From contig JANSXT010000028.1 of the NCBI GenBank assembly GCA_024742765.1, positions 1 through 32,348 of the forward strand: DNA of 32,348 bases, in the 5' to 3' direction. This document shows positions 15,659-31,180 of the stretch, one piece after another (the first letter of the stretch is position 1; each line of letters begins with the position of its first letter). Both the position numbers and the translations under genes were made by a program. The notes under the pieces were generated by a model. The model was given only the letters and a program-made list of their open reading frames with translations, was not told the origin of the DNA and did not search any database. The stretch comes from Phyllobacteriaceae bacterium. Lineage in GTDB: Bacteria > Pseudomonadota > Alphaproteobacteria > Rhizobiales > Rhizobiaceae.

Positions 15659-16984
15659 ATGCGCCTTTCGAGATATTTTCTGCCGATCCTCAAGGAAAAC
15701 CCCAAGGAAGCCGAGATCGTCTCGCACCGGCTGATGCTGCGCGCCGGCATGATCCGCCAGCAGGCCGCCGGCATATATTCCTGGCTGCCGCTCGGCAAGA
15801 AGGTGCTCGAGCGCATCAACGACATCGTGCGCGAGGAGCAGAACCGTGCTGGCGCCGTCGAGATATTGATGCCGACCATCCAGCCCGCTGATCTCTGGCG
15901 CGAGAGCGGCCGCTACGACGATTACGGCCAGGAGATGCTGCGCATCACCGACCGGCACGAGCGCGACATGCTGTACGGGCCGACCAATGAAGAGATGGTC
16001 ACCGACATCTTCCGGTCCTATGTGCGGTCCTACAAGGATCTGCCGCTGAACCTCTACCACATCCAGTGGAAGTTCCGCGACGAGGTGCGCCCCCGCTTCG
16101 GCGTCATGCGCGGCCGCGAGTTCCTGATGAAGGACGCCTATTCCTTCGATCTCGACTATGAGGGCGCAAAGGCGTCCTACAACCGCATGTTCGTCGCCTA
16201 TTTGCGCACGTTCGAGCGGCTCGGGCTCAAATCGATCCCGATGCGCGCCGACACGGGCCCCATCGGCGGCGATCTGAGCCATGAATTCATCATCCTCGCC
16301 GAGACCGGCGAATCGGAAGTCTTCTGCCAGAAGGCCTTCATGGACATGGACGTGCCCGGAGAGGATGTCGATTTCGCCGATGACGGCGCCATCGCGGCAA
16401 TCGTCGATCAATGGACGACGCCCTATGCCGCCACCGATGAGATGCATGACGAGGCCGCCTGGGCTGGCATTTCCGACGGTGACAAGGTCTCGGCGCGCGG
16501 CATCGAAGTCGGCCACATCTTCCATTTCGGCACCAAATATTCCGAGCCCCTGGGCGCGACGGTCGCCGGTCCCGACGGCAAGGACGTGCCAGTCTCGATG
16601 GGCTCCTACGGCATCGGTCCCTCGCGCCTGATCGGCGCGATCATCGAGGCCTCCCATGACAATGATGGCATCATCTGGCCGAAAAGCGTTGCGCCCTTCG
16701 GCGCGGTGATCGTCAACATGAAGCCCGGCGATGCGGACTGCGACGACTGGTCGGAACGTGCCTATGGCGCCCTTGCCAAGGCCGGGGTCGACCCGCTTCT
16801 GGACGACACGGACCAGCGGCCAGGCGCAAAGTTCGCCACCGCCGATCTGATCGGCATGCCCTGGCAGATCGTCATCGGTCCGCGCGGCGTCAAATCCGGT
16901 CTCGTCGAACTCAAGGACCGCGCGACCGGCGAAAAACACGAACTCGATCTCGACGCCGCCATCGCGCGGGTTGCGGAGGCCTGA
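15659..16984 (+). CDS. proS: Prolyl-tRNA synthetase (short, without editing insertion)
   Basis: 441 residues; a class II aminoacyl-tRNA synthetase that charges tRNA-Pro. Motif 2 is visible in [26 protein letters not shown] and motif 3 in [16 protein letters not shown], followed by the anticodon-binding domain. E. coli ProRS has about 570 residues with an inserted editing domain between motifs 2 and 3; here that region is far shorter (about 90 residues). This is the known alphaproteobacterial form that leaves clearance of Ala-tRNA-Pro to separate proteins. The upstream gap carries the small RNA on the other strand. lolC follows after 5 bp. Confidence 0.97.
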
Positions 16985-16989
16985 TCGCG

Positions 16990-18309
16990 GTGAGCGCCGA
17001 AACGCAGGAAGCGATGGACGCAGCGACGGTCGGCAACGGCCGCACGGACGGGTCCGCCGGCCCGTTCTCCGCCTTCGAGCGCATGATCGCCTGGCGCTAT
17101 CTGCGGCCCCGCAAGAAAGAGGCGGCGGTCTCGATCGTCACCATCATCTCGCTGGTCGGCGTGACGCTCGGCGTTGCCGCTTTGATCATCGTCATGGCGG
17201 TGATGAACGGCTTCCGCGCCGAACTGCTGGACCGCATTCTGGGGCTGAACGGCCATGTCATCGTCCAGCCGATCGAACGCCCGCTGGACGATTATGACGC
17301 TGTCGCCGAACGCATCACTGCCGTCGACGGCGTCACGCTGGCGGTGCCGTTGATCGAAGGGCAGACGCTGGCATCGGGCAATGTCGGCGCCGGCACGGGC
17401 GCTCTGGTGCGCGGCGTGCGCGCCGAAGACTTTTCGCGCCTTGAATCCATTTCAGGCAATCTGACCGAAGGATCGCTGGTGCCGTTCGCCGCCGGCGAGG
17501 GCGTCGTCATCGGCATTCGCATGGCGCGCAATCTTGGCCTGATCGCCGGCGATCGGATCACGCTCGTCTCGCCCGAAGGCGATGTCACGCCCTTTGGCAC
17601 CACGCCGCGCGTCAAATCCTATCCGGTCGCGGCCATCTTCGAGATGGGCATGAGCGAATATGACGGGTCGATCATCTTCATGCCGTTCGAGGAAGCCCAG
17701 CTCTATTTCAATTCCGAGGGCGTGGCGCAGCTGATCGAAGTGTTCATCGACGATCCTGACGCGGTCGATGTCTATCGCCAACAGATCGAGGAGGCCGGCA
17801 ACCGGCCGATGTTCCTGGTCGATTGGCGCCAGCGCAATTCGGCCTTCTTCTCGGCGCTGGTGATCGAGCGCAACGCCATGTTCCTCATCCTGTCGATCGT
17901 CGTCCTGGTCGCTTCGCTCAACATCATCTCGAGCCTCATCATGCTGGTGAAGGAAAAGGGCAGGGGCATCGCCATCCTGCGCACCATGGGCGCCAGCCAG
18001 TCATCGATCCTGCGCATCTTCATCATGGCCGGCACCGGCGTCGGCGTTGTTGGCACCGCCGCGGGCGTGCTTCTCGGCGTCATCCTGTGCTGGAACATCC
18101 AGGGCATCCAGCGCTTCATGAACTGGGTATCGGGCGCCGAAGTGTGGGACCCGACCATACGGTTCCTCAGCGAGATACCGGCGCGCATGAACCCCGGCGA
18201 GACGCTCGCCGTCATTCTACTGTCGCTGGCTCTTTCCTTCCTCGCCGCGATCATCCCGGCACGCCGCGCCGCCAAGCTCGATCCTGTCGAAGCGCTGAGG
18301 TATGAATGA
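16990..18309 (+). CDS. lolC: Lipoprotein-releasing ABC transporter permease, LolC/LolE (LolF) family
   Basis: 439 residues; an inner-membrane permease that extracts outer-membrane lipoproteins and hands them to LolA. The layout is an N-terminal cytoplasmic tail with the family segment [21 protein letters not shown], one membrane span, a large periplasmic domain (about 70-290), then three C-terminal spans with the FtsX-like coupling region [26 protein letters not shown]. Only one permease gene accompanies lolD, so the protein probably acts as a homodimer, as proposed for LolF in species lacking separate LolC and LolE. The GTG start has GGAGG at 16975-16979. Its stop overlaps the lolD start. 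Confidence 0.93.
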
Positions 18310-18998
18310 TGGCCGATCCGGTGCTGAAGCTGGAGGCCGTTGAACGCGCCTATGAGGAGGCTGGTCATACGCTGGAAGTGCTGCGCGGCGCCGACCTTGC
18401 GCTCAAGCCCGGAGAGATGATCGCCCTGGTCGCGCCGTCCGGCGCCGGCAAGTCGACGCTTCTGCACACGGCCGGCCTGCTCGAACGCCCCGATGGCGGC
18501 GAAGTCTATCTGTCCGGACAGCCCTGCGGCTCGCTCAGCGACCGGGAACGCACCGCCCGCCGGCGGAACGATATCGGCTATGTCTACCAGTTCCATCACC
18601 TGCTGCCGGAGTTCTCGGCGCTCGAAAACGTGATGATCCCGCAGATGATCCGCGGCCTTGCGCGCCACGAAGCCGAAACGCGGGCGCGCGAATTGCTCGA
18701 CTATATGCGCATCGGCCCGCGCGCCGCGCACCGGCCCGCCGAACTGTCGGGCGGCGAGCAGCAGCGCGTCGCCATTGCCCGCGCCGTCGCCAACGCACCG
18801 CTCGTCCTTCTGGCCGATGAGCCGACCGGCAATCTCGATCCCGAGACCTCTTCCTATGTGTTCGAGGCGCTGGAAGCATTGGTCCGCCAGTCCGGACTGG
18901 CCGCCCTTTTTGCGACGCACAACCATGACCTGGCGCGCCGCATGGACCGGATCGTCACCATGGATGAGGGCCGGATCGTGCCCTTCGTCGCCGCCTGA
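18306..18998 (+). CDS. lolD: Lipoprotein-releasing ABC transporter ATPase LolD
   Basis: 230 residues. The ATPase powers lipoprotein release by the adjacent permease. Walker A is APSGAGKST (43-51), the signature is [14 protein letters not shown], Walker B is [12 protein letters not shown], and the switch histidine lies in [13 protein letters not shown]. Two tandem in-frame ATGs (18306 and 18309) overlap the lolC stop; either may be used. A small hairpin GCGCC-TTCG-GGCGC (19038-19051) follows the gene but has no T-run. Confidence 0.96.
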
Positions 18999-19067
18999 CC
19001 TCCACAGGTCCCTTCACCTTTCGATAACCATCGGACCGCGCCTTCGGGCGCCAGCCAAATTGGGTGC

Positions 19068-19096
19068 TTTACAAACGACAGAAAAGGGAACATGGT
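19068..19096 (+). promoter_or_regulatory. Candidate promoter overlapped by the LexA box
   Basis: TTTACA (19068-19073) and CATGGT (19091-19096) are 17 bp apart and fit a weak sigma70-like promoter. The -10 lies inside the LexA-type repeat, so a bound repressor would block it. The predicted start near 19103 leaves a short leader with AGGAG before the 28-codon gene. Confidence 0.4.
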
Positions 19097-19102
19097 AAGA
19101 AC
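19088..19102. promoter_or_regulatory. LexA box (GAAC-N7-GAAC)
   Basis: The direct repeat GAAC-ATGGTAA-GAAC is an exact match to the alphaproteobacterial LexA operator (GTTC-N7-GTTC on the other strand). It ends 22 bp before the ATG of the 28-codon gene. A second exact copy precedes dinB in this window, which strengthens the reading. Confidence 0.8.
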
Positions 19103-19124
19103 ATAAAGGGAATAGGAGTGGATA

Positions 19125-19211
19125 ATGCCGGAACTTGCACGCGACTTCGCCGCCTTCTTCTCGATCGCATCCTTCGTGGCAACACTCGCCCTGATGATCG
19201 GCTATCTGTGA
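19125..19211 (+). CDS. 28-residue single-span membrane peptide, SidA-like SOS candidate
   Basis: The frame starts MPELARDFAAFF and ends ALMIGYL-stop. Residues about 8-28 form one hydrophobic segment; charged residues (E3, R6, D7) are only at the N-terminus. AGGAG at 19114-19118 lies 6 nt upstream of the ATG and a LexA box precedes it. Caulobacter SidA is a LexA-controlled inner-membrane peptide of 29 residues that blocks division through the late divisome (FtsW/FtsN). Size, membrane span and SOS operator match, but sequence homology cannot be judged at this length. The gene lies between lolD and dnaE. I infer an SOS-induced membrane peptide, possibly a division inhibitor. Confidence 0.7.
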   Translation: MPELARDFAAFFSIASFVATLALMIGYL

Positions 19212-19340
19212 GCGGAAACCGCCGAAGATCGGGGATTTCGACCCTGCTCTCTGGACTCTCGCCAGCCCGCCAATGACGATGGATCGTCCGCCTCGTGAAG
19301 GCACGCGATTCCGCGTGGGGCGCGGCAAGGAGAAGACGGT

Positions 19341-22300
19341 TTGACACTTCAGGACCCGGCGGGCGGCACCCCGCTCATCGATCCCGGCTTCGTTCACTTA
19401 CGCGTTCATTCGGCCTATTCGCTGCTCGAAGGCGCACTCAAGCTGCCGCGGATCATCGACTGGGCGAGAGACAATGGCGCACCGGCCATCGCAGTCACCG
19501 ACACGGCCAATCTGTTCGGCGCGCTGGAATTTGCCCAAAAGGCGTCGGGCGCCGGCGTCCAGCCGATCATCGGCTGCCAATTGCCGATCCGGTTCAACGG
19601 CGAGGGTGACGATGAGCGCGGACAGGGCCGGGGCGGCAAGAGCGCCATGGGCGATGCGTCCATCGTGCTGCTGGCGGCCAATGAGACCGGTTATCGCAAT
19701 CTCGTCGAACTGGTCAGCCGCGCCTATCTCGACCAGGACGATCTCGATTGCGTGCGCATCCATGATGGCTGGCTGACCGAACGGGCCGACGGCATCATCT
19801 GCCTGACCGGCGGACCGGCAGGTCCGGTCGGTGCCGCGCTTGCCGACGGGCACGGCAAGCTGGCCGAGCAGCGTCTTGGCACGCTGAAGACACTGCTTGG
19901 CGACCGGCTCTATGTGGAACTGCAGCGGCACGGGGACTGGGACCGAACGGTCGAGGCCGGCACGGTCAATCTGGCCTACAGGCACCACCTGCCGCTGGTT
20001 GCCACCAATGAGGCGTTCTTCTGGGGGCGCGATGATTTCGATGCCCATGACGCGCTGATCGCCATTGCCGACGGCGCGCTCCTGTCGATGGACGACCGGC
20101 GCCGGCTCACACCGGACCATTGGCTCAGGCCCGCCGCCGACATGATCCGGCTTTTTTCCGATCTGCCCGAGGCGACCGCCAACACGGTCGAGATCGCCAA
20201 GCGCTGTTCTTGGTTCCCGCGCAAGATCGACCCCATCCTGCCGCGCTTTGCCGCCGTGCCGGACGGTGCGACCGCCGCCGAAGCGGAAAAGGCCGAAGCG
20301 GACGAATTGCGCCGCCAGGCGCTTGAAGGGCTGAACGCGCGCCTTGAGCATCAGGGCATGGCCGAGGGTTACAGCCGCGAAGACTATGACGAACGGCTCG
20401 ACCGCGAACTGTCGATCATCGAGGGGATGAAGTTCCCCGGCTACTTCCTGATCGTCGCCGACTTCATCAAATGGGCGAAAGCCAGGGACATTCCGGTCGG
20501 GCCCGGGCGCGGCTCGGGCGCCGGCTCGCTGGTTGCGTGGGCGCTGACGATCACCGACATCGATCCCTTGCGCTTTTCGCTCCTGTTTGAGCGCTTTCTC
20601 AACCCCGACCGCGTGTCGATGCCGGACTTCGACATCGACTTCTGCCAGGAACGGCGCGACGAGGTGATCCGCTACGTCCAGGACAAATATGGCCGCGATC
20701 AGGTCGCCCAGATCATCACCTTCGGAACGCTGCAGGCGCGCGCGGTCCTGCGCGATGTCGGCCGCGTGCTGGAAATGCCCTATGGCCAGGTGGATCGCCT
20801 CTGCAAACTGGTGCCCAACAATCCGGCCAATCCCACAACGCTCGCCAAGGCGATTGAGGGCGAGGCGAAGTTCGCCGAGGAGCGCGAGCGCGAGCCGATC
20901 GTCGGCCAGTTGCTCGACATGTCGCTGAAGCTCGAAGGGCTCTATCGGCACGCCTCGACCCATGCGGCGGGCATCGTCATCGGCGACCGGCCCCTGTCGC
21001 AGCTTGTCCCGCTTTATCGCGATCCGCGCTCGGACATGCCCGTCACCCAGTTCAACATGAAGTGGGTCGAAGATGCGGGGCTTGTGAAGTTCGACTTCCT
21101 CGGCCTGAAGACGCTGACCGTGCTGGAAACAGCGGTCAAGCTGCTCGCCCGACGCGGCGTGACGATCGATTTGTCAGCGCTGCCGCTCGACGACCGGCCA
21201 AGCTATGAGATGATGGCGCGCGGCGAAACGGTCGGCGTGTTCCAGGTGGAAAGTCCGGGCATGCGCAAGGCGCTGGTCGGCATGAAACCCGACCGGATCG
21301 AGGACATCATCGCGCTGGTCGCGCTCTACCGGCCCGGCCCGATGGACAACATCCCGACCTACAATGCCCGCAAGCATGGCGACGAGGACATCGCCTCGAT
21401 CCACGAGAAGATCGATCATCTGGTCGAGGAGACGCAAGGGGTCATCGTCTATCAGGAACAGGTGATGGAGATCGCCCAGGTCCTGGCCGGCTATTCGCTC
21501 GGTGAAGCCGATCTCTTGCGCCGCGCCATGGGCAAGAAGATCCGCGCCGAGATGGACAAGCAGCGCGTGCGCTTTGTCGATGGCGCGGTCGAGCGCGGCG
21601 TCTCCAAGCCGCAGGCCGATTTCATCTTCGATCTGCTGGCCAAGTTCGCCGATTACGGTTTCAACAAGTCGCATGCCGCCGCCTACGCGATGGTCGCCTA
21701 CCAGACCGCCTATCTGAAGGCCCATTATCCGGTCGAGTTCCTCGCCGCGTCGATGACCTACGACATGGCCAACACCGAAAAGCTCAACGACTTCCGGCGC
21801 GACGCGCTGCGGCTCGGCATCGAGGTGACGCCGCCTTCGGTGCAGACGTCGCATCGGCCGTTCGAAGTGGGCGAGAACCGCATCTTCTGGGCGTTGGCCG
21901 CCATCAAGGGCGTTGGCGAAGCAGCGGTCGACCACATCGTCGCCGTGCGTCCCGAGGGCGGTTTCGACAGCCTTGAGGATTTCGCCCGCCACGTCGATCC
22001 AAGGATCGTCGGCAAGCGCGTCTTCGAAGCGCTGATCGATGCCGGTGCGCTCGACTGTTTCGGCCATGATCGTGCCGCGCTGGCGGCCGGGCTCGAACGG
22101 ATCATCGGCCTGTCGCAGCGTGTCGCCGAAGAAGCCGCAAGCGGGCAGGGCGATATTTTCGGCGCGATGGAGGCGGTGCAGCCCGAGCGGCTGGCGCTGC
22201 CAACGGACGCGCAATGGTCCGACGCTGAAAAGCTGATGCGCGAACTGCGCGCCATCGGCTTTTACTTCTCCGCCCATCCGCTGGACGCCTATCAGCCGAT

Positions 22301-22847
22301 CCTCGAAAAGGGCCGCGTCCAGAGCTACGCGGATTTCGCCATCGCCATCAAGCGCGGGGCGGAAGCGGGCCGCCTGGCGGGCACGGTCGCCGCCCGGCAG
22401 GTGCGCCGCACGCGCACCGGCAACAAGATGGGCATCATCACCCTGTCGGACGCCACCGGCCAATATGAGGTGGTGATGTTCTCGGAGATGCTCGACCAGT
22501 ATGGCGATATGGCCGAAGTGGGAAAGAGCTTCATCCTGACGGTGACGGTGCGCGAACGCGAGGACGGATCGGTCTCGCTGATGCTGACGTCGATGAGCAC
22601 GCTCGACGAGCAGGCCGGCGCCGATGCGGCCCATGTGCTGCGCGTCTTCATGCGCGATGCGGAGCCGGCAAAGTCCGTGGCGCGCCATCTGCGCCAGAAG
22701 GGGCCAAGCCCGGTCTCCCTGATTCTCATCAAGCCCGATGGTGCCGGGGAGGTGGAGATCGAACTGCCGGACCAGTATGCGGTCTCGGGGCCCGTTGCTA
22801 GCGCGATCAAGTCGGTGCCGGGCGTGGTCGACGTCGAACTTGTCTGA
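19341..22847 (+). CDS. dnaE: DNA polymerase III subunit alpha (replicative, DnaE1)
   Basis: 1168 residues; the replicative polymerase. The N-terminal PHP domain begins FVHLRVHSAYSLLEG. The palm shows GPGRGSGAGSLVAWAL and the catalytic PDFDIDF (D429, D431), with the third aspartate D585 in KFDFLGLKTLTVL. Next come FNKSHAAAYAMVAYQTAYLKAHYP, a helix-hairpin-helix (VGKRVFEALIDAGALD) and an OB domain (AGTVAARQVRRTRTGNKMGIITL). The complete PHP histidine set and the length point to DnaE1, not the error-prone DnaE2. The TTG start is chosen because GGAG (19329-19332) is 8 nt upstream and no ATG precedes the PHP motif at a sensible distance. A LexA-box promoter lies 240 bp upstream with no clear terminator in between. 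Confidence 0.97.
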   Translation: MTLQDPAGGTPLIDPGFVHLRVHSAYSLLEGALKLPRIIDWARDNGAPAIAVTDTANLFGALEFAQKASGAGVQPIIGCQLPIRFNGEGDDERGQGRGGKSAMGDASIVLLAANETGYRNLVELVSRAYLDQDDLDCVRIHDGWLTERADGIICLTGGPAGPVGAALADGHGKLAEQRLGTLKTLLGDRLYVELQRHGDWDRTVEAGTVNLAYRHHLPLVATNEAFFWGRDDFDAHDALIAIADGALLSMDDRRRLTPDHWLRPAADMIRLFSDLPEATANTVEIAKRCSWFPRKIDPILPRFAAVPDGATAAEAEKAEADELRRQALEGLNARLEHQGMAEGYSREDYDERLDRELSIIEGMKFPGYFLIVADFIKWAKARDIPVGPGRGSGAGSLVAWALTITDIDPLRFSLLFERFLNPDRVSMPDFDIDFCQERRDEVIRYVQDKYGRDQVAQIITFGTLQARAVLRDVGRVLEMPYGQVDRLCKLVPNNPANPTTLAKAIEGEAKFAEEREREPIVGQLLDMSLKLEGLYRHASTHAAGIVIGDRPLSQLVPLYRDPRSDMPVTQFNMKWVEDAGLVKFDFLGLKTLTVLETAVKLLARRGVTIDLSALPLDDRPSYEMMARGETVGVFQVESPGMRKALVGMKPDRIEDIIALVALYRPGPMDNIPTYNARKHGDEDIASIHEKIDHLVEETQGVIVYQEQVMEIAQVLAGYSLGEADLLRRAMGKKIRAEMDKQRVRFVDGAVERGVSKPQADFIFDLLAKFADYGFNKSHAAAYAMVAYQTAYLKAHYPVEFLAASMTYDMANTEKLNDFRRDALRLGIEVTPPSVQTSHRPFEVGENRIFWALAAIKGVGEAAVDHIVAVRPEGGFDSLEDFARHVDPRIVGKRVFEALIDAGALDCFGHDRAALAAGLERIIGLSQRVAEEAASGQGDIFGAMEAVQPERLALPTDAQWSDAEKLMRELRAIGFYFSAHPLDAYQPILEKGRVQSYADFAIAIKRGAEAGRLAGTVAARQVRRTRTGNKMGIITLSDATGQYEVVMFSEMLDQYGDMAEVGKSFILTVTVREREDGSVSLMLTSMSTLDEQAGADAAHVLRVFMRDAEPAKSVARHLRQKGPSPVSLILIKPDGAGEVEIELPDQYAVSGPVASAIKSVPGVVDVELV

Positions 22848-26094: not shown

Positions 26095-27399
26095 TCAGCC
26101 GTCGCGCTGCGGACGGCCGCGATGACCGGTGCCGAACGTGTAGCCGGTTTCCACGGCACGATCGCCGAACTTGCCGCGCAGCGTGTCGATCGCCCGCTCG
26201 GCCTTGGCGCGCCGCGTCGCGTCCACGTCGACCAGATCGTCCGGATCGGCCAGCGCCGGATGGGCAAAGTCCGCCACGCCGACGCCCAAAAGCCGGTACT
26301 GGGTGCCGTCCAGTTCCTTTTCCAGAAGCGGCAGCGCTGCGCGGAAGATGCGGTCGGCGAGCTGCGTCGGATCGGCAAGCTGCCGGTTGCGCGTCTTGGA
26401 CCGGAAATCGCGATCCTTGAGCTTCAGCGTCACCGTCTTGCCGGCAAGCCCCTTGGCCTTGAGGCGCGCCGAGACCTTTTCGGTGAGCGACCGCAAAACG
26501 GGGACCAGCGTCGCCGCGTCCCCATGATCGTCATTGAATGTCGTCTCGTGGCTGATCGACTTGGCGCCGCCGCGCGGCTCCACATGGCGTGTATCCTGGC
26601 CACGCGACAGGTGATAGAGCCGCCGGCCCATCACGCCGTAGCGTTTCATCAGCGCGGTCTCGTCCATCGACTGCAACTGGCCGATCCGGGTAATGCCGTC
26701 CTTTTCCAGCGTCGCGGCGAAGGCCTTGCCGACGCCCCAGATCAGTGTCACCTTCTGGCGGGCAAGAAATTCGAGCGCCTCGGCCTCGCCGATCACCGAA
26801 AAGCCGCGCGGTTTTTCAAGGTCCGAGGCGACCTTGGCGAGGAACTTGCAATAGGAAAGGCCGACCGACACCGAGATGCCGATCTCTTTCTCGACCCGTT
26901 TGGCGAACCGGGCCAGCGTGCGTGCCGGCGTGTCCCTGTGCAGCCGCTCCGTACCGGTCAGGTCGAGAAACGCCTCGTCGATCGAGAGCGGTTCAACCAG
27001 CGGCGTCAGTTCCTCCATCATCGCCCGCACCTGCCGGCCGACGGCGGCATATTTTTTCATGTCCGGCTTGATCACCACAGCGTCGGGACACGCTTTGAGC
27101 GCCTTGAACATCGGCATGGCGGACCTCACGCCATGGATGCGGGCAATGTAGCAGGCCGTTGAAACGACTCCTCTTTTGCCGCCGCCGATGATGACCGGCT
27201 GGTCGCGCAGTTCCGGCCGGTCGCGCTTCTCAACGGCTGCGTAGAAGGCGTCGCAATCCACATGGGCGATCGACAGGCCGGCAAGCTCGTCATGGCGCGC
27301 CATGCGTGGACTGCCGCATGCCAGACAGCGGCGCTCCGCGCCGGTCGCCGGCGTGAGGCAATCGCGACAGAACGCGCCTGACAGGTCCGCTTCATTCAT
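26095..27399 (-). CDS. dinB: DNA polymerase IV with N-terminal zinc ribbon
   Basis: 434 residues; a Y-family translesion polymerase. The catalytic residues are D48 ([16 protein letters not shown]) and D141-E142 ([10 protein letters not shown]). Other blocks are [16 protein letters not shown], a helix-hairpin-helix region near [16 protein letters not shown], and a little-finger domain with KSISHETTF. Residues 1-35 are an extension not present in E. coli DinB, with C11, C14, C25 and C28 (CRDC...CLACG), probably binding zinc. A LexA box ends 6 bp before the ATG, and no Shine-Dalgarno site is present. DUF3572 lies 49 bp upstream on the same strand. The C-terminus is Arg/Gly-rich and lacks an obvious clamp-binding tail. 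Confidence 0.96.
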
Positions 27400-27404
27400 G
27401 GTTC

Positions 27405-27419
27405 GAACATAGCACGAAC
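27405..27419. promoter_or_regulatory. LexA box of dinB (GAAC-N7-GAAC)
   Basis: GAAC-ATAGCAC-GAAC is an exact direct repeat of the alphaproteobacterial LexA type, ending 6 bp before the dinB ATG. A -10-like TATGTT (- strand, 27411-27406) lies inside the box, which would place the transcription start at about the A of the ATG. Confidence 0.85.
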
Positions 27420-30068: not shown

Positions 30069-30716
30069 TCAGGGGAACCAGCCGGTCGCCGGATATTCGA
30101 TGATGCGCCGGCCGTTGCGCACCCGGTAACACGGCACCGGCGGATCGGTTGCGAGCGGCGGATCGTCGGCCAGCCGCGCGGTCGCGATGCGCATCACTTC
30201 GGCTGTGATCGCATGCAGCCGTTCACCGTGATCCGTGTCGGCGCGGTACCAGCCGATCGCCGACAGTTCGCCGTCTGTTCCTTCGAACCGCACCTGGCCG
30301 CGGTCGACGACGGCGAGGAAGAAGCGGGTGTCGTAGCGGCGCACCTGGCCGGGCGGCGTGATCGCCCGCGCAATGTAGCGCAGCGGCGTCAAAAGGGCCC
30401 TGCTTTCAAGAACAAGACCGGTTTCCTCCCCGGTCTCGCGCATCGCGCAGGCGGCAAAGGCGGTGGCGCGGCTGTCGCTCGCGCCGGTGCCCAGTTCGTT
30501 GCGAAGCCAGGCCATGTCGGCATCGGGGACGACCGGCGGAACGGGTAAATGGCTGTCGGCCTTTTCCACCCGTCCGCCCGGAAAGACACGGTTGTGCGCC
30601 ATGAAGACGTGTCCGCCCGATCGCTCGCCCATCAAGAACGCCGGTGCGCCATCCGAAAGGTCCGCCAGAAGCAGCGAAGCGGCGTTGCGCGGACGAAGAT
30701 GGGGACGGCCGGACAT
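30069..30716 (-). CDS. NUDIX hydrolase with split Nudix box (NUDT19-like)
   Basis: 215 residues. The Nudix box is interrupted: FPGGRV is at 45-50, but the catalytic RETGEETG follows only at 93-100, after an insertion of roughly 30 residues (DSHLPVPPVVPDADMAWLRN region). NUDT19/RP2-type coenzyme A diphosphatases carry a similar insertion, so a CoA- or acyl-CoA-type substrate is plausible but unproven. The remainder (RYDTRFFLAVVDRGQV) fits the fold. The start at 30716 has AAGG 6-7 nt upstream. The DUF983 stop is 8 bp upstream, so the two are co-transcribed. Confidence 0.9.
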   Translation of the reverse strand: MSGRPHLRPRNAASLLLADLSDGAPAFLMGERSGGHVFMAHNRVFPGGRVEKADSHLPVPPVVPDADMAWLRNELGTGASDSRATAFAACAMRETGEETGLVLESRALLTPLRYIARAITPPGQVRRYDTRFFLAVVDRGQVRFEGTDGELSAIGWYRADTDHGERLHAITAEVMRIATARLADDPPLATDPPVPCYRVRNGRRIIEYPATGWFP

Positions 30717-30724
30717 GCGTGCCT

Positions 30725-31180
30725 TCAGCCGTGCTGTGCCGGATCGATGTCGGGATCGGCGACACCGTCCTCGGTGCCGCCGAATCCGTGCATCCGGTTG
30801 GCCCATTGGAGGCCGATCACCGCACCCTTGATCGGCGGGATCAGCGCGAACGCCAGGATCAGGGTGAGGGGAATCCAGACCGCAAAATGCAGCCAGGAAG
30901 GCCAGTCGGTGACCCGTTCGACCATCAGAAAGCCCGCAACGACGACATGGCCGACGATGAAGACGTTCAGATAGGCGGGCAGATCGTCGGCGCGATGATG
31001 ATGCATGGCCTCGCCGCAGGTCGAACACGCATCGACGGATTTGGCATAGGAAGCAAACAGCGCGCCCTCGCCGCATTGCGGGCAGCGGGATTTGAGGCCG
31101 CGCCCGATGGCGCGCCACAGCGGCCGCCGCGGCTCGTGTCCGGTGCCGCCGAAAATGTGCGTGTCCATCGTCTGGCTCAT
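30725..31180 (-). CDS. DUF983 family membrane protein
   Basis: 151 residues of the DUF983 family (function unknown, common in alphaproteobacteria). A zinc-ribbon-like pair CPQCGEG and CSTCGEA lies at about residues 33-57. Two membrane spans follow: about 70-88 (LNVFIVGHVVVAGFLMV) and about 95-118 (WLHFAVWIPLTLILAFALIPP). The family segment PPIKGAVIGLQWANRMHGFG comes near the end. It lies 16 bp after rnr and 8 bp before the NUDIX gene, so the three form one unit. Confidence 0.92.
   Translation of the reverse strand: MSQTMDTHIFGGTGHEPRRPLWRAIGRGLKSRCPQCGEGALFASYAKSVDACSTCGEAMHHHRADDLPAYLNVFIVGHVVVAGFLMVERVTDWPSWLHFAVWIPLTLILAFALIPPIKGAVIGLQWANRMHGFGGTEDGVADPDIDPAQHG

Follow-up and report, generated by a model that had tools for sequence, protein, structure and literature searches.

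The stretch of DNA analysed here, hereafter the window, comprises 32,348 nucleotides (nt) of a Phyllobacteriaceae bacterium (contig JANSXT010000028.1 of assembly GCA_024742765.1; genome total 3.95 Mb). The element in question is a short boxed open reading frame (ORF) at positions 19,088 to 19,211, a candidate SOS-controlled division inhibitor of the type of SidA from Caulobacter crescentus. It lies in the 342-nt gap between lolD and dnaE, which houses both an operator-like box and the ORF of a 28-residue peptide (Table 1). The half-sites of the box stand in an 11-nt register, at 19088 and 19099, and are followed by a degenerate GAAT at 19110. One stretch of the peptide is hydrophobic (highest Kyte-Doolittle mean over 17 residues, 2.2), from which a single membrane span is predicted, and the peptide has no Pfam family.

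The exact operator, the well-spaced AGGAG and the tiny one-span frame named in the original prediction are all present. Its plausible promoter fared less clearly, as a consensus scan of positions 18950-19400 for sigma-70 promoters and terminators found neither, while TTGACA-like hexamers that, by eye, lie a few bases ahead of the box in many relatives speak in its favour. Because the scan found no promoter in the window, where TTTACA is the closest hexamer of -35 type, support for one there comes wholly from this comparison.

Table 1. Features of the lolD-dnaE region in window coordinates.
Feature	Positions	Strand	Basis or remark
proS	15659-16984		Pfam domains and annotated S. meliloti gene order
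lolC/E	16990-18309		gene order proS-lolC/E-lolD-gap-dnaE
lolD, lipoprotein-release ATP-binding cassette (ABC) ATPase, conserved upstream neighbour	18306-18998	+	Pfam ABC_tran
TTTACA, probable -35 hexamer	19068-19073	+	14 nt from its end to the exact box
Putative LexA operator GAACATGGTAAGAAC, GAAC-N7-GAAC	19088-19102	+	exact match; ends 22 nt before ATG
Shine-Dalgarno sequence AGGAG	19114-19118	+	6 nt before ATG; sites of GGAG/AGGA type are found ahead of most boxed survey ORFs
ORF of 28-residue peptide, SidA-like, predicted single span, ATG start: MPELARDFAAFFSIASFVATLALMIGYL then stop	19125-19211	+	ORF translation
dnaE, replicative DNA polymerase III alpha, conserved downstream neighbour	19341-22847	+	Pfam DNA_pol3_alpha; TTG start with AAGGAG

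A boxed and conserved frame upstream of dnaE

The box by itself is within chance, as GAAC-N7-GAAC occurs at three sites in the window against 0.86 expected and at least three sites arose in 6 of 100 shuffles. Genome-wide there are 131 such sites compared with 67 for the reversed pattern, and at the genome's rate 0.004 sites, counting both orientations, are expected in the 132 positions that precede any one start. Boxes of the same form lie upstream of lexA (recognised by Pfam LexA_DNA_bind) and ssb in the source genome. Among 20 own-genome sites that were chosen by eye from 100 of the 131, favouring A-rich spacers, 15 were flagged as lying inside a long frame on either strand, the flag being a crude one that was raised for the lexA and ssb sites as well. 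The second site of the window (27405-27419) lies 5 nt ahead of the first ATG in an ORF for a Y-family DNA polymerase of the DinB type (26095-27399, minus strand; Pfam IMS), which is found on the opposite strand 3.2 kb beyond the end of dnaE and may be a further SOS gene, perhaps one that truly starts later. The third (30266-30280, minus strand) falls within a NUDIX-domain ORF (30069-31118) and is probably due to chance.

A survey anchored on dnaE, and hence blind to peptide sequence, gives the unit as a whole a different standing. With dnaE located in 99 of 101 genomes of the window's order and in 107 of 114 genomes of the class, the upstream stretches were read in all 99 order genomes and in 60 of the 105 genomes of other orders with a dnaE match, the 45 left out being mostly weaker-scoring. 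A LexA-type box followed by a short membrane ORF was found upstream of dnaE in 50 of the 99 and in 11 of the 60, respectively. When the stretches were cut at 600 nt and compared with 100 dinucleotide-preserving shuffles, stretches shorter than 80 nt being scored as misses, 48 of 99 order genomes carried the combination against a shuffle mean of 0.02 (maximum 1) and 3 on the opposite strand, while the other orders gave 11 against 0.01 in shuffles and 0 on the opposite strand. The unit as a whole is therefore above chance, since box and short membrane ORF recur upstream of dnaE in relatives and are nearly absent from the shuffles. A promoter layout often recurs as well, with TTGAC, about 4 bases, a GAACAAAACATGAAC-like operator and then a GGAG-type site. 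Within the peptides, the motif D/E-xx-A-x5-7-F is present in 35 of the 50 from the order (2.7 in shuffles).

Searches with the peptide itself agree with this picture within the order. tblastn of the 28 residues produced matches at E<=1 in 23 of 101 genomes, and 15 of the 24 loci, from 11 genera, adjoin dnaE, 14 of these 15 with an exact box upstream. An alignment of 16 peptides (A1) has invariant M1, D7 and F17, and its profile matches 165 of 199 genomes and 90 of 106 genera of the window's family (E<=0.001), most of the listed 1-2 Mb genomes of that family being without a match. Across the order, peptide matches were obtained in 59 of 199 genomes (E<=0.1), with dnaE within 24 of 29 newly fetched loci. 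A peptide profile run over 190 genomes of the class yielded no clear match outside the order (best match besides own, E 0.014), and for this reason the wider distribution is taken from the dnaE-anchored survey.

In named genomes, a scan with a 9-residue motif returned 212 stretches, of which 195 were confirmed and 80 kept, and the following figures refer to these 80. They include Rhizobium, Sinorhizobium/Ensifer, Neorhizobium, Shinella, Pararhizobium and Agrobacterium cavarae. All 80 have a 28-residue ATG-started ORF with dnaE downstream, and in 68 lolD is found within range upstream. An exact box lies within 150 nt in 63, and the other 17 have, by eye, a similar sequence with an altered half-site.

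The reading frame is under selection at the level of amino acids. Over 37 independent pairs the ratio of nonsynonymous to synonymous differences (pN/pS) was 0.18 in frame, against 1.11 and 10.2 in the +1 and +2 frames. As the loci were found through the 9-residue motif, pN is lowered in these pairs; without the codons of the search motif the ratio is 0.22. Three genomes (G000, G001 and G002) encode identical peptides with 1-7 synonymous differences, and their 100 nt upstream are 74-78% identical. The alignment of the gap across the order, which the original prediction proposed as a check, thus shows a frame that is conserved and selected.

Copies outside the usual setting also occur. Some Rhizobiaceae genomes have two or three peptide-profile matches (e.g. 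G054, G837, G878, G817, G779 and G778). One genome (G020, locus L014) holds a second copy of 32 residues with no exact box nearby; an exonuclease VIII-like phage gene is found at a distance of about 0.7 kb, and the copy is possibly prophage-borne. In another (G143, locus L055) a family peptide lacks an exact box within 120 nt upstream and is followed, about 0.7 kb further on, by a gene that resembles ssb by eye. A phage origin was considered and rejected, as neither of two motif matches in viral contigs was confirmed, the second-copy peptide had no match in phage records, and there was no PHROG match.

Place and residues shared with SidA

PMC4211646 describes SidA of C. crescentus as an SOS-induced protein of the inner membrane, 29 residues long, with FtsW and FtsN as interaction partners and with a proposed role in keeping FtsW/I/N inactive. 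The NCBIfam model of SidA, NF033228, passed its cut-off in a single genome (G597) out of 386 of the class, and among 14 named controls it matches only Caulobacter vibrioides, which is why a group of 99 genomes (f115) is taken to be the Caulobacteraceae. Of that group 81 match the model at E<=0.05, 59 above the cut-off and 22 below it. The NCBIfam cut-off would accordingly seem narrow, and in two of the genomes below it (G527 and G320; loci L123 and L394) the match is just upstream of dnaE.

The order of features around SidA recalls the window. G597, above the cut-off, has lolC-lolD-box-SidA-dnaE, and G527, below it, has box-peptide-dnaE with lolD about 0.9 kb upstream. In the 30 best-scoring Caulobacteraceae loci, drawn from the 81 matching genomes, dnaE lies directly downstream of SidA in every case, including three in which the peptide was misread (L148 and L150) or incomplete because of a short flank (L152). 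lolD is within 1.5 kb upstream in 18 of the 30, and in 11 of these 18 about 1.1-1.3 kb lie between, leaving room for another gene. An exact box precedes SidA in 21 of 28 readable regions. The position of SidA is thus that seen in the loci of its family, from which it was established in place of the C. vibrioides record itself.

Compared with SidA, the peptide of the window has similar size (28 against about 29 residues), one predicted span, an operator-like box and the same place between lolD and dnaE, place and box being those of the family loci on the side of SidA. The two share R6, D/E7, A10, S13 and F17, plus V18; they differ in that the window peptide stays below the NF033228 cut-off, lacks W19 and has a different C-terminal third. 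The comparison of the gap with Caulobacter-type sidA came out in favour of the original prediction, as sidA too immediately precedes dnaE, has a LexA box in most loci, and shares residues with the gap peptides in the same register.

This register runs from the start codon. Conserved in SidA are R6, S13, F17, V18 and W19, with E/D7, A10 and V14 nearly so, and in the Rhizobiaceae set R6, D7, A9, A10, F11, S13 and F17, so that R6, D/E7, A10, S13 and F17 are common to SidA and the gap peptides. In a scan of NCBIfam, NF033228 was the sole family matched by the window peptide (residues 4-18 on 4-18, E 0.026), and 2 of the 16 A1 members likewise matched SidA and no other family. Profile-profile comparison with hhalign aligned columns 1-22 on 1-22 at a probability of 84% (P 7e-6), P-values here being those of a single pair and possibly flattered by hydrophobic composition. 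The start-anchored score of the window peptide to 15 SidAs was 31.9 (p 5e-5, the lowest value that 20000 shuffles can give; p 2e-4 with class-preserving shuffles). When 1476 short hydrophobic ORFs were ranked, 27 SidAs came first, then 69 gap peptides and then the first unrelated ORF at 15.7, in a pool that is rich in gap peptides as it was drawn from fetched loci.

Proposed division arrest and alternative explanations

On the preferred reading, positions 19088-19211 hold a gene repressed by LexA, its product being an inner-membrane peptide of 28 residues that is a positional ortholog of Caulobacter SidA and arrests the late divisome. We put the probability of this reading at roughly three in four. 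DNA damage would activate RecA and lead to cleavage of LexA, the loss of which would free the operator over the promoter. Translation would then start from a strong ribosome site in a short leader, and the peptide would insert as one helix in the inner membrane and keep the late divisome (FtsW, with FtsI and FtsN) inactive until repair is done. LexA control may thus operate in the source strain and the peptide may be inserted in the membrane, with FtsW/FtsN as its possible target, while division arrest itself is a role it may have by transfer from C. crescentus SidA. There, sidA is reported to be an early SOS gene, and its removal relieves the filamentation of a lexA-null strain (PMC12700426).

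The FtsW of the source genome, 45% identical to that of G747, is consistent with such a target at two positions, F145 and A246, which are kept and at which changes overcome SidA in C. crescentus. The numbering was fixed by the start in G747 and G752 that places A, F and A at 31, 145 and 246.

A number of observations weigh against this reading. Position 31 of FtsW, another suppressor site, is S and not A in the source genome. The window peptide scores 14.5 bits where NF033228 has a cut-off of 35, and E-values of 0.01-0.03 in the NCBIfam scan can be chance, since among the other nine gap peptides scanned, of which eight were unmatched, one matches an unrelated sortase-signal model at E 0.011. 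A profile of Caulobacteraceae SidAs (A3) run over 150 order genomes gave weak matches, none of those listed being at the gap, and the listed match of the source genome (E 1.4) also falls elsewhere. Tested individually against the SidA profile, 16 of the 50 survey peptides of the order reach p<0.05 (13 with class-preserving shuffles), as do 2 of the 11 from other orders (3 of 11 with class-preserving shuffles). The D/E-xx-A-x5-7-F motif occurs in just 2 of those 11 (0.3 in shuffles), and 7 of the 28 readable SidA upstream regions are without an exact box. Box and ORF are missing upstream of dnaE in 49 of the 99 order genomes, at least some of which have the peptide elsewhere (G128 and G164) or with an inexact box.

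Because the SidA profile search gave weak matches and none listed at the gap, the claim of homology rests on place and register. Taking size, place, operator and register together, common descent of the gap peptides and SidA is the best reading and highly probable from these comparisons. As the cut-off of NF033228 is not reached, the proper term is SidA-type, orthologous by position, and not SidA as NCBI defines it. The suggestion of a rhizobial counterpart of SidA is supported by place, box, size and in-register residues, the evidence on sequence similarity beyond hydrophobicity pointing both ways.

Perhaps the peptide shares its descent and SOS induction with SidA and now has another divisome or envelope target. 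The likeness to SidA does not extend beyond roughly residue 20, the Rhizobiaceae set has A19 where SidA has an invariant W19, and the weak genome-wide score with the SidA profile and the changed FtsW position 31 point the same way. Conservation of F145 and A246, however, and the retention of size, place and box over great divergence make such a change of target unlikely.

Alternatively, the ORF could be an upstream ORF (uORF), or encode a leader peptide, through which dnaE1 translation is tuned, with the LexA box serving dnaE1. The peptide ORF and the downstream dnaE do share one strand, with 129 nt between them, and sORF25, a non-annotated translated small ORF in the dnaE1 5′ untranslated region of Sinorhizobium meliloti 2011, has been suggested to be a possible uORF (PMC10117765). 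Moreover, no terminator-like site separates the peptide ORF from dnaE, and so dnaE may be co-transcribed where it is adjacent. Coupling to dnaE is not constant, however. The genome G164 has lolC-lolD-boxes-peptide and lacks dnaE in the 1.5 kb that follow, the fetched loci of G128, G195, G036 and G022 hold a boxed peptide and no dnaE, and in G128 and G164 dnaE is on other contigs with no box in the 600 nt upstream. With selection acting on the amino acids of the peptide, as the pN/pS ratios indicate, a purely regulatory ORF has a small probability.

A third explanation is an SOS peptide of the TisB/DinQ type that depolarises the membrane and is not a ligand of the divisome. DinQ and TisB are of similar length to the window peptide, and type I toxins such as these have an antisense RNA and a structured leader, which in TisB is long. 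The leader of the window ORF is instead short and its ribosome site open, no Rfam family reached its threshold in 18900-19500, and place and in-register residues are common with SidA. Although DinQ (PMC3567139) and TisB (PMC8145889) are described as small single-span peptides under LexA control, we consider a toxin of this kind improbable here. Finally, a chance ORF beside a chance or dnaE-directed LexA box, for which the chance level of the box alone in the window could be cited, is contradicted by the dnaE-anchored survey, the shuffles, pN/pS and the prevalence of 165 of 199 genomes in the family, and its probability is negligible.

Comparison with other inhibitors and Sinorhizobium meliloti

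Other small inhibitors resemble the proposed peptide in part. DidA of C. crescentus, described as an SOS-independent division inhibitor that binds FtsN (PMC4211646), is likewise a small membrane inhibitor acting on FtsW/I/N, but is not SOS-controlled. YneA of Bacillus and SosA of Staphylococcus (PMC6851548) are SOS-induced division inhibitors of another phylum, and YneA is reported to act on FtsW (PMC13396833). These three were compared by description only. The genes yneA and sidA are called unrelated in PMC4211646, where the SOS division inhibitors of different bacteria are also described as unrelated. In the literature covered by our search, which did not extend to the original 2011 paper on SidA, there was no rhizobial gene named for SOS division arrest and no rhizobial peptide linked to SidA.

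The shared arrangement might even suggest, tentatively and at somewhat less than even odds, that the alphaproteobacterial SOS division checkpoint is ancestral. One LexA operator-sidA unit before dnaE1 would have been inherited across orders, with a transcript that may run into dnaE1 and so couple division arrest to the supply of replicative polymerase. The peptide would have diverged almost beyond recognition save for the start-anchored register [RK][DE]..A..S...F, perhaps tracking FtsW. Recurrence of the unit across rhizobia suggests a common way of pausing division during DNA repair, and it provides rhizobia with a candidate SOS division-arrest gene, whose sequence is now given for S. meliloti and for dozens of other named genomes.

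In S. meliloti, sORF25 occupies the same place before dnaE1 as the window peptide and is probably, judging by this position, the member of the gap peptide family in that species, from which the published reading as a possible uORF differs (PMC10117765). In the S. meliloti record CP090106.1 (3.7 Mb, labelled pSymB) the gap before dnaE encodes MADFVRDLAAFASMSLFIVSISVIALGL under two overlapping boxes. The gene order there is proS, lipoprotein-release permease, ABC ATPase and dnaE, and the gap has no annotated feature in what is an incomplete gene table. A SidA-type role would offer an explanation for this translated and otherwise unexplained small ORF, and makes the question of division directly testable. 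Three plasmid-labelled records of 3.5-4.6 Mb (L424, L425 and L426), which contain the peptide locus and, in L424, an annotated dnaE, are probably chromosomes under a wrong label.
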